A stretch of 64,000 bases of DNA, taken from positions 248,001 through 312,000 of the forward strand of contig NZ_SDMK01000003.1 in the NCBI RefSeq assembly GCF_004123295.1, read 5' to 3'. Positions within the stretch are counted from its first letter, which is position 1. Every line of letters begins with the position of its first letter. The notes beneath the pieces were generated by a model, which worked only from the letters and a program-made list of their open reading frames with translations, was not told the DNA's origin and made no database searches. The DNA comes from Silvibacterium dinghuense. GTDB lineage: Bacteria; Acidobacteriota; Terriglobia; Terriglobales; Acidobacteriaceae. The translations under genes were made by a program, and so were the position numbers. Below are positions 29,410 to 32,396 of this stretch, piece by piece.

Positions 29410-29519
29410 TCAGTCTTTCGACCTTTCCTGGGAGGCCATACGTCACGGGAATTTTGGGGGGCCGTATCTTTCGGAGTTGCGCGGGTCAATATGCAGACAG
29501 GGAGCGCGCAGAATGCGCT

Positions 29520-30716
29520 ATGCTGACACAGCGGAAACCGAAACAGCTGATGACGTCTGGCAGAAACAATCTCTATTCCATTTTAGACGCTCCGGAACCC
29601 CAGGCGATCCGACCTCTTTTTGGCCTTTCCCATCAGCAACTTACCGTCCTGTCGCAAGAGTTTTCACTGCCTGCGTACCGCGCCCGCCAGCTTTCCCAGG
29701 CCCTTTACCGCGACCGCGTGGACTCGCTCGAAGCCCTCACCACGCTGCCCCAGTCCGTCCGCGAGCAGATGCGCGCCGCCGGTTATGAAGTCGGCCGCCC
29801 GCGGATTGCCGAGACCTTCCGCTCCGTCGACGGCACCGAACGATACCTCATCGCCACCGCCGATGGCCAGACGGTCGAAACGGTCTGGATGCCCGAAGGC
29901 GATGACGGCGAAGCCGGCGACGGATCGGAAGCCGGAGAGGAAGAAGTTCTAACCATCGAGCAGGGAGGCCATCACGACGCGACCATCTGCGTCTCTTCGC
30001 AGATCGGCTGCGCGGTCAACTGCCAGTTCTGCCTGACGGCCAAGCTCGGCATCATCCGCAACCTCACGCCAGGCGAGATTGCCGGGCAGGTTGTCGCCGT
30101 CCTCGACCGCCACAAGGTCCGCATCGGCCGCGACCGTATCAATCTTGTGTTTATGGGCATGGGCGAGCCGTTTCTGAACTACGACGCCTTCATGGACGCT
30201 GTCCGCCTGCTGGTGAACGAAGTCGGCATCGCCGAATCGCGCATGACCGTCTCTACCTCCGGCATCGTCCCCGGCATCGAGCGCTTCGCCACCGAGCCGG
30301 TCCGGCCCAAGCTCGCCCTCTCGCTCAACGCCTCCAACGACGCGGTCCGCGAGCAGGTCATGCCCATCACCCGCAAATGGGATATCGCCGCACTCATGGA
30401 CGCCATCCGCAAGGTGCCGCTGCGCCCCCGCGAACGCGTGACCTTCGAATATGTGCTGCTGGGCGGCGTCAACGATCAGCCGGAGCACGCCAGCGAGGTC
30501 ATCCGCCTCGTCCGCCGCTGCGGCCTGCCGGCCAAGGTCAACCTCATTGCCTGGAACCCCGGCCCCGGCATCCCCTACACCATGCCCGCGCCCGCAAGCG
30601 TCGAACGATTCCAGCAGGCGCTCATCGCCGCCGGCATCCCCGCCTTCCTGCGCCGTCCCCGAGGACGCGACATCTACGCCGCCTGCGGCCAGCTCAAGCG
30701 CACCGTCGAAGCCTGA
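29520..30716 (+). CDS. rlmN: 23S rRNA (adenine-2503-C2) methyltransferase, radical SAM
   Basis: About 398 residues. The radical SAM cluster motif is in ICVSSQIGCAVNCQFCLTAKLG (CxxxxxxCxxxCxxC spacing with CAVNC-FC), then VFMGMGEPFLNY and the C-terminal GRDIYAACGQL Cys that forms the RNA adduct. RlmN methylates A2503 of 23S rRNA and A37 of some tRNAs. An unusual acidic insertion (GDDGEAGDGSEAGEEE) precedes the first Cys. Starts at 29520 and 29550 are both plausible without a strong Shine-Dalgarno. The stop codon overlaps the edge of a repeat element. Confidence 0.93.
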   Translation: MLTQRKPKQLMTSGRNNLYSILDAPEPQAIRPLFGLSHQQLTVLSQEFSLPAYRARQLSQALYRDRVDSLEALTTLPQSVREQMRAAGYEVGRPRIAETFRSVDGTERYLIATADGQTVETVWMPEGDDGEAGDGSEAGEEEVLTIEQGGHHDATICVSSQIGCAVNCQFCLTAKLGIIRNLTPGEIAGQVVAVLDRHKVRIGRDRINLVFMGMGEPFLNYDAFMDAVRLLVNEVGIAESRMTVSTSGIVPGIERFATEPVRPKLALSLNASNDAVREQVMPITRKWDIAALMDAIRKVPLRPRERVTFEYVLLGGVNDQPEHASEVIRLVRRCGLPAKVNLIAWNPGPGIPYTMPAPASVERFQQALIAAGIPAFLRRPRGRDIYAACGQLKRTVEA

Positions 30717-30985
30717 GAGCCTGTTATGAACTTTCCCGCAGCGGACGCTGGGCGCCAATTTTTTCGAGGTCGAGGAGCGAGTTGCGACGGATATCGGGTT
30801 ATCTCCGAGCAGCGAGCGACGAAGAGATCGGGAAAATTGGCCCCAGCCCTGAAGGGTTGCGGGGAAAATCGGCCCATACTTCGTTGTCGGCCTCGCCTAG
30901 GAATAGCCTATGTCTTCGGCCTCCGCCTCGTCTGCGCCGATTTTCCCCAGCAACGCCGCTCGCGCGAAAGTTCATAACAGGCTCT
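30716..30985. mobile_element. 270-bp MITE-like element with 20-bp perfect terminal inverted repeats
   Basis: AGAGCCTGTTATGAACTTTC at 30716-30735 is repeated in exact inverted form at 30966-30985. The interior has no credible gene and contains related blocks such as GGGGAAAATCGGCCC and its partial complement near the right end. The left terminus begins on the last base of the rlmN TGA, and the right terminus overlaps the TAG of the porin gene, so the element exactly fills the space between two convergent genes. It may be a non-autonomous transposon relic and may double as a terminator. Confidence 0.75.
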
Positions 30986-32396
30986 ATGCTCCTTTTTTCT
31001 GCAACTTGAAACGGTAGGTCAGCGCCAGGTATCCCAGCGTGATGGGCGAACCGTGGCCGTTGTTCGCCATCACCGCTCCTGGAGCAAAATGCGCCACACC
31101 AGCATTCATCACCACCGAAGAAGTCACGAGGTACTTCGCCGAGGCGTCGAATTCGCGCCCGATCCCGTCGCTCTTGAATCCACCCGTCGGCGGCTTTACC
31201 ACCGTACTCGCCGATCCGCTGTAGACGCTGTCCTTGCCCGTCGCCGTCTGCAGAAACTCCCCCTGGATCAGGAGCGTCAGCCGTGAATCCGGCCGCAGGT
31301 CGAGGTTGATCCGCTCCTGCTGGATGTTCTGCCAGCCGAAGAGGTCCACCAGGCCGAAGGCATTGTGCGAACTCGGATAGAGCTGGTCGAAGGTGCTGAC
31401 CCGCTCGGCATTGCGGTGCGTGTTGCCGGTCGCATAGTCGTATTCGAAGAGCAACCGCGGCGTCCAGGGCAGGTACTTCGCTGTCTCTCCGGCCTTGATA
31501 TACCCCGCGCCTGCGTGGATCGAGTCATTCGCATAGCTGCCGCGCTCGAGCACGCCCTCGGCTACCACCTCGAAGCCCTCCGGCGCGTTCACCAGCACGC
31601 GCATCCCCGGCGCCGCCTCGGTTTCCGTGCCGTACCTGCCCTGCTGCCCCTTCACCCACGGCATCGCCTTCACGAAGACATACGGCTCGACCGTCGCATG
31701 CGGCACCACGCGGCCCAGCGATCCATACACCCCGTGAAAATTCAGCCCGCCCGCGTGCTCGTCGAAGGCCGTCGGATAAATCTTCACCACCGAAGCGCTG
31801 AAGACCGTCACCCGGTTAGCCTCGCCATACTGCGCGCTGAAGCCGTCGAAGGTGCGGCTCACATTTGTCCAGTCCGAAATGCCCACCAGCCGCTCGCCGC
31901 CAAAGCGCAGCTCCTGCCGTCCGGCCAGGATCGAGGCGTCATGCGCATGCACGGAGACATAGCACTGGCGCAGGTCGAAGTTGTCGCGCATATTAGAGGC
32001 CACATACTTGAGCGGCAGCCCCAGCGCATGCGAATCCATCGCCTGCGCATAGATCGTCATCCACGAAGCAGGCCGCGCCTCGATCCCCGGCCACACTCGC
32101 GTCAGCTCATACACCTGCCCGTTGCCCGAGACGTTGCTCACCGTCGTCTCGCCTTCGGTCCGTCCGCGCACCTGCATGTCGAGCGAGAGCCAGCCCGGCA
32201 GCAGCTTGGTCGGCACATTCTGCACCACGCCCGCCTTCTGCGGATAGTCCTTGTACTGCGCCGAGGCCAGCAGCGGCGCCATCGCCGCAAAACAGAACAC
32301 CGCAACCGCCCGCACATTGTTTCTGAGTACATTTGCCGTCGTTCCCGGCCGGATAGCGGGCCGAACCGGAAAGACACCATGGCATGCAGAGAACAT
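30984..32396 (-). CDS. Outer-membrane alginate-export-family porin
   Basis: 470 residues with an N-terminal signal (VRAVAVFCFAAMAPLLASAQ after a somewhat long leader). The mature sequence is a beta-barrel of the Alginate_exp family: DMQVRGRTEGET near the start, the RQELRFGGERLVG segment conserved in this family, and the terminal aromatic strand LGYLALTYRFKLQKKGA. Acidobacteria often carry such porins. The substrate, likely a sugar polymer or small anion, is unknown. A downstream start is possible, since about 28 residues precede the hydrophobic core. Confidence 0.82.
   Translation of the reverse strand: MFSACHGVFPVRPAIRPGTTANVLRNNVRAVAVFCFAAMAPLLASAQYKDYPQKAGVVQNVPTKLLPGWLSLDMQVRGRTEGETTVSNVSGNGQVYELTRVWPGIEARPASWMTIYAQAMDSHALGLPLKYVASNMRDNFDLRQCYVSVHAHDASILAGRQELRFGGERLVGISDWTNVSRTFDGFSAQYGEANRVTVFSASVVKIYPTAFDEHAGGLNFHGVYGSLGRVVPHATVEPYVFVKAMPWVKGQQGRYGTETEAAPGMRVLVNAPEGFEVVAEGVLERGSYANDSIHAGAGYIKAGETAKYLPWTPRLLFEYDYATGNTHRNAERVSTFDQLYPSSHNAFGLVDLFGWQNIQQERINLDLRPDSRLTLLIQGEFLQTATGKDSVYSGSASTVVKPPTGGFKSDGIGREFDASAKYLVTSSVVMNAGVAHFAPGAVMANNGHGSPITLGYLALTYRFKLQKKGA

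Follow-up and report, generated by a model that had tools for sequence, protein, structure and literature searches.

A MITE is commonly regarded as a decayed copy of a single parent insertion sequence (IS). Among the bacterial MITEs whose termini carry TA, the consulted parts of PMC2229807 name ERIC/IRU, Correia/NEMIS and RUP, the ends of RUP being like those of IS630-Spn1, and describe most such TA-ended elements as one stem-loop without arms. The element reported here lies in a window of 64,000 nt (the whole stretch of DNA that was analysed). As far as these families are covered in those parts of the source, it resembles them in its small size, its lack of a conserved ORF, its inverted ends, the TA at its edge and its base-paired transcript, and differs from them in having IS5-family ends and, inside an outer stem, two conserved arms with a mini-hairpin. 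Caulobacter CIR repeats, as presented in the same parts of PMC2229807, likewise have two arms with a linker and a conserved fold, but are only partly MITE-like and lack an outer stem of transposon ends. The Tn3-derived TIMEs, according to the parts of PMC4133298 consulted, share with the element a comparable length (~262 bp), transposon ends, conserved core stretches and mobilisation in trans, as we propose it here; they differ in their Tn3-family ends, 5-6-bp duplications, usual presence as a single copy and single end family. The IS5 family (NF033580) includes an IS with the same 20-base end, at locus L205, and ISs with similar ends for six of the nine end types distinguished below, whereas the window element lacks a transposase, and none of the ISs examined contained its interior. 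Within a limited library of open-access literature no paper describing the element's family was found: the family is not described in the consulted parts of PMC5900883, PMC10969869, PMC3733652, PMC2229807 and PMC4133298, and a term search of the main text of PMC10969869 gave no mention of Acidobacteria. Our main reading, to which we assign a probability of about 0.78, is that the element is a MITE whose IS5-family ends are used in trans, whose target is TA/YTAR and whose core is separable from its ends.

The sequence-only reading of the window had set a 270-bp element with perfect 20-bp terminal repeats between two convergent stop codons, with its left end on the last base of the rlmN TGA and its right end overlapping the TAG of a porin gene. 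Its limits and repeats proved exact (Table 1), both overlaps were confirmed from the ORFs, and two additional inverted repeats were found inside it, in agreement with the internal repeats reported earlier. The terminal arms (30716-30739 and 30962-30985) are 24 nt long and 96% complementary, the outer 20 positions being perfect. In the window, the 19-mer of the element end occurs at 2 sites, against 0.01 expected, and in the host genome at 46 sites with at most 2 mismatches (32 of them exact; reversed control 0). This enrichment in genome and window, together with the fold z of -8.4 given below, led us to reject a chance palindrome.

Table 1. Positions in the window of the element, its parts and the two adjoining genes.
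Feature	Position	Strand	Remarks
Whole element	30716..30985	no strand	270 bp, probable MITE; 1 of 24 near-full copies in the genome
Left terminal inverted repeat, AGAGCCTGTTATGAACTTTC	30716..30735	+	pairing reaches 30739; ends the IS5-family IS in L205
Right terminal inverted repeat	30966..30985	-	same 20 bases as left; pairing reaches 30962
Arm A, long imperfect hairpin	30747..30847	+	model R2, 112.5 bits, partly by construction (model built from relatives of the window copy)
Mini-hairpin between arms A and B	30848..30855	+	consensus fold and alignments; longer in some copies
Arm B, long imperfect hairpin	30856..30954	+	model R1, 112.8 bits, partly by construction (model built from relatives of the window copy)
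rlmN	29454..30716	+	radical SAM; RlmN N-terminal domain just under cut-off; longest ORF, start uncertain
rlmN stop, TGA	30714..30716	+	last base (A) common to the element
Porin stop, TAG	30984..30986	-	two bases from the element
Outer-membrane porin, Alginate_exp family	30984..32396	-	ORF and Pfam

The interior had also been called non-coding, which holds in so far as no ORF is conserved, but an 83-codon ORF (30726-30977) spans the element from left end to right end and is open in the window copy. Only 7 of the 26 host-genome copies examined have 80 or more open codons from the ATG of this frame; the ORF is probably accidental, and a coding element was rejected on its lack of conservation. An autonomous IS5-family element was rejected as well, the 270 bp containing neither a conserved ORF nor a transposase of its own. 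A search of the window against Rfam at gathering score returned 0 matches, by which a known Rfam RNA was rejected.

By DNA search the host genome (5.1 Mb, 9 contigs) contains 24 near-full copies, which measure 267-312 bp, along with several partial copies. Twenty-nine distinct loci were recovered there with an arm-B covariance model, among them C1:139154 (L154), which had escaped the DNA search. Judged from its sequence, the element is one of about thirty small, gene-less, mobile copies in this genome. A mobile element with terminal-repeat pairs elsewhere had been suspected at the outset, and the 46 end sites and 24 near-full copies bear this out: the terminal repeats do occur elsewhere. Arm B of three copies (L020, L023 and L028) carries, at the same point, an extra stretch starting CCCACCCC, which is a nested repeat or marks a subfamily. 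Four host-genome loci (L084-L087, at C1:892600, C4:257252, C4:364648 and C5:145086) are solo end motifs with no partner within ~4 kb, possibly deletion remnants.

Among relatives, matches were found in 9 of 100 genomes, the host included, two of the nine being marginal (~40 bases). Of 299 genomes sampled from the class, 11 were positive with the arm-B model under strict filters: the host and 6 others of its family, and 2, 1 and 1 genomes in three further family codes, with weak matches in family codes f4 and f6 and with the sole f5 genome (G253) 80% complete, 6% contaminated and of uncertain family. A pattern scan of named genomes for the exact 20-base end returned 23 MAG stretches, labelled Acidobacteria/Acidobacteriaceae, Pyrinomonadaceae, Anaerolineae/Chloroflexi, Armatimonadetes and Rubrobacter; the three-arm core was present in two of the 23, both Acidobacteriaceae. 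The host thus probably belongs to the Acidobacteriaceae or stands close to them. No relatives of the element matched in the plasmid and phage collections, from which records near the host genome may be absent.

A search for a full IS with these ends, also proposed in the sequence-only reading, succeeded in another genome. In a Rubrobacter MAG (L205) an 863-bp IS has one end identical to that of the window element at 20/20 positions and the other at 17/20. The 269-aa ORF between these ends matches DUF4096 (PF13340) and DDE (PF01609) and scores 205 bits against NF033580 (cut-off 110), and its predicted product is an IS5-family transposase. In an Acidobacteria MAG (L195) a stretch of 678 bp has one exact end and one end at 18/20, and contains a shorter ORF scoring 117 bits against NF033580, with a DUF4096 score below cut-off. 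We take the IS5-family ISs with these ends to be IS427-like. The element is small, multicopy and bounded by inverted ends, has no transposase of its own and shares its ends with autonomous ISs of other genomes, as is typical of MITEs.

The host genome itself gave 1 match to DUF4096, with an internal stop, and 3 partial matches to DDE. It gave no match to the L205 protein, and no intact partner IS was found in it, only broken relatives of the L205-type transposase. Because its transposases are interrupted or partial and none matches the L205 protein, the host-genome copies of the element may no longer be mobile. The same genome holds a decayed IS5-type IS (L099, C2:638500-643500) whose outer edges both carry CTAG and whose ends are GGGCGTATCTACATATT-like. 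It also holds three loci (L105, L106 and L107, at C1:1463466, C2:263565 and C5:16040) in which GTATCGAC-type ends enclose a different hairpin-like interior (TGTCATTTCGACC...); these are apparently a second MITE family with end types common to the family of the window element. In two Acidobacteriaceae MAGs, 53-bp elements (L190, 7930-7982; L204, 2963-3015) consist of little beyond two window-type ends. At L189, L193, L194, L198, L199, L200, L206 and L207, in MAGs of Anaerolineae, Pyrinomonadaceae, Armatimonadetes and Acidobacteria, the 20-base end is paired at 169-233 bp in other MITEs that have no match to the three-arm model.

The predicted RNA fold of the element reaches -145 kcal/mol (z -8.4; 0 of 200 shuffles as good) and the DNA fold a z of -6.4. 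In this fold an outer stem surrounds two long arms, A and B, with a tiny hairpin between them, and the copies have the architecture of outer stem, arm A, mini-hairpin and arm B in common. In a set of 17 diverse copies, pairing holds in 95.8% of cells and both sides have changed in 50 of 89 pairs, the consensus structure being derived from the same 17-copy alignment and the relatedness of the copies inflating the covariation counts. None of 500 shuffles reached any of five covariation measures in these copies, and pairing fell to 37-45% when the partners were slid by 1-3 columns.

Selection on the RNA of one strand predicts G.U above A.C. In the forward fold the counts were 147 against 117 and in the reverse fold 119 against 140; in the 86 pairs shared by the forward and the reverse fold, taken over 50 copies, G.T occupied 100 cells in 39 columns and A.C 113 cells in 40 columns. 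One-strand RNA selection was rejected on these counts. In the same 86 pairs there were 359 double Watson-Crick changes and 362 other mispairs, the latter including misaligned distant copies. Since compensatory change is strand-symmetric, maintenance of the palindrome at the DNA level is a better fit than selection acting on an RNA. The palindrome would be kept either by arm-templated correction, in which one arm is repaired from the other, or by a hairpin that is needed single-stranded or for movement.

Ends and cores were compared in 50 copies (26 from the host genome and 24 others), partial copies and copies without script-found ends being left out; end-finding had failed at 10 of 34 loci and given a false pair at L123, and these were omitted except for L061, whose ends were located separately. 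Thirty-four of the 50 copies measure 266-271 bp and the rest are longer. Nine end types were distinguished by our own labels, six of which occur in the host genome. Clear ends were obtained at roughly ten of 27 transposase loci, and the likenesses to IS5-like elements were drawn by eye: the window end type is like the ends of L205 and L195, TTAACAC like L174, L179 and L182, TTCACAC like L172, TCATCAAA like L162, GTATCGAC like the decayed IS of the host in L099 and like L163, and TTCATAAAT, which stands on distant f4 copies, partially like L165 and L186. Three copies of the f4 family (L116, L124 and L130) have cores only 54-55% identical to that of the window, and their orientation is less sure, the arm-A model fitting the place found with arm B better.

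Could the end types have arisen within a single line of descent? On the core tree, which has good support for 10 of its 47 inner branches, the end labels need 11 changes, against a minimum of 8 and a shuffled mean of 24.8; the end types cluster on this tree, not one-to-one, and types T5 and T6 each make up one side of a well-supported branch. Such clustering agrees with a single MITE lineage that diverged gradually along with its transposases, its two ends kept complementary by arm-templated correction and never exchanged between elements, an account that we consider possible yet rate clearly below even, in view of copies in which ends and core have parted. The core of L012 is identical to that of the window copy at 204 of 208 positions, the highest value of all, while its ends agree at only 23/30 and 21/30 and are still mutually complementary at 20/22 positions. 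L016, L019, L022 and L024 behave like L012, so that five host-genome cores 87-98% identical to that of the window carry coordinated different ends. Conversely, other copies have cores just 89-92% identical and yet ends identical at 29-30 of 30 positions; in L018 both ends are 29/30 like those of the window and the core only 185/207. Six end labels within one genome also sit poorly with that account. Compared pairwise, the 17 diverse copies show a mean identity in paired columns of 0.69 for the ends and of 0.77-0.83 for the arms.

We therefore favour the reading as a MITE with separable parts: the core, a strand-symmetric three-arm palindrome, would be worn with several end types, from which it follows that the core and the ends recognised by transposases are evolutionarily separable. 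Ends would have been exchanged between elements. A bolder view, that the three-arm core is itself a DNA parasite of transposons, a constrained, strand-symmetric hairpin module which survives through changes of its transposase-recognised ends and has ridden several IS5-like lineages across one bacterial class, appears to us rather unlikely.

TA is present at both edges of 16 of the 24 near-full copies, 4 of the 16 having an extra base. The other 8, among which is the window copy with its edges GA/TA, have TA at a single edge and no clean TA duplication. A 4-bp CTAG duplication, which fits the 9 of 24 copies that have CTAG at both edges and not the extra-base copies, and 3-bp duplications, which fit only a few copies, were rejected by inspection. 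Of the 27 host-genome copies with both ends (the 24 near-full copies, two with GTATCGAC-type ends and L154), a predicted gene stop lies at an edge in 11, at 12 edges in total (10 TAG, 1 TAA and 1 TGA); edges defined by BLAST gave a lower count, a gene stop at 9 of 30 loci. Apart from rlmN and the porin gene, 9 of 10 edge-stop genes have a Pfam match, the exception being a 90-aa ORF at L003. At L004 the edge TAG follows directly on the C-terminal Phe of a TonB receptor, and the copy L061, from a relative, likewise has a short open frame terminated by the edge TAG.

In the window, 968 of 1240 TA sites lie inside genes. Outside gene interiors, stop codons account for 33 of 272 TA sites (12%), 13 of 38 YTAR sites and 5 of 10 CTAG sites, as counted on 50 genes called by our own hexamer script. 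Edge stops in 11 of 27 copies, set beside 13 of 38 YTAR sites, indicate that the seat on stop codons is about as frequent as the availability of YTAR predicts; with plain TA as the target it would be in excess. Some of the edge stops could have been acquired, since the element edges carry TAG in one frame.

That insertion had created both stop codons was one suggestion of the sequence-only reading, which called for comparison with relatives; this comparison lends it no support for rlmN and gives a mixed answer for the porin. The rlmN gene was found in 27 of 31 genomes. At the 17 loci read (the host and 16 relatives, one locus cut by a contig end), its end falls on the same residue in three relatives without an adjoining element (G001, G006 and G016) and within ~18 residues in the others, and the C-terminal end of RlmN looks unaltered by the element. 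Outer-membrane barrel proteins follow a C-terminal Phe rule. Porin homologues were found in 13 of 61 genomes, the host included, and the 15 homologous loci comprise 8 with an end at Phe, 3 with a tail, 2 that are cut and 2 that the script did not align. The Phe stands at or next to residue 463 of the host porin in 8 of the 11 homologues with a readable end; past it the window porin continues for seven residues, KLQKKGA, to the edge TAG. Insertion may accordingly have given the porin alone its present stop and seven-residue tail, which we regard as only a little short of even odds: the fetched flanks of the 16 relatives contained no porin beside rlmN, and the junction of the two genes may be a rearrangement, but the 3 of 11 homologues with tails, which are more distant, and the native-looking edge stop of L004 count against it.

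The other suggestion, that the element is retained as a bidirectional terminator, found no support: positions 30400-31300 contain 0 terminator-like sites (GC-rich hairpin followed by a T run; 0.8 expected in shuffles), and the 30 host-genome loci comprise 6 convergent, 5 divergent and 18 tandem gene pairs and 1 not classed, by which a preference for convergent genes was rejected. In a wider form, the element would be kept because its transcript serves at gene ends to terminate transcription in both directions, to stabilise mRNA or as a processing site, and mobility would be no more than its origin. The very stable fold with compensatory change and the 11 of 27 copies touching a gene stop are in keeping with this, but the near-equal G.T and A.C counts (100 and 113 cells) are strand-symmetric, and of the genes reading into the 30 loci 12 meet the element in sense and 18 in antisense; taken with the terminator search and the gene layout, this makes such a function very improbable in our view.

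In the preferred reading, as a MITE, the ends would be recognised in trans by an IS5-family (DUF4096 plus DDE) transposase, with insertion at TA, mostly within YTAR/CTAG. In the GC-rich host genome such sites would be rare inside genes and common in TAG stop codons, and after insertion into the TA of a stop codon the terminal G of the element would rebuild TAG. Insertion there would be harmless because the terminal G restores the stop, and the seat at gene ends would arise because the target is common in TAG stops and insertion at them does no harm. A TA target within YTAR, together with the terminal G that rebuilds TAG, would thus provide a simple account of the precise placement on stop codons.

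The element is ordinary in kind, a MITE, and unusual in having a conserved core separated from exchangeable ends. A conserved core with coordinately changed ends separates the part seen by the transposase from the part that is kept. Whether the core contributes to movement, for example through its hairpins, or whether arm-templated repair suffices for perfect palindromes, thereby becomes testable.
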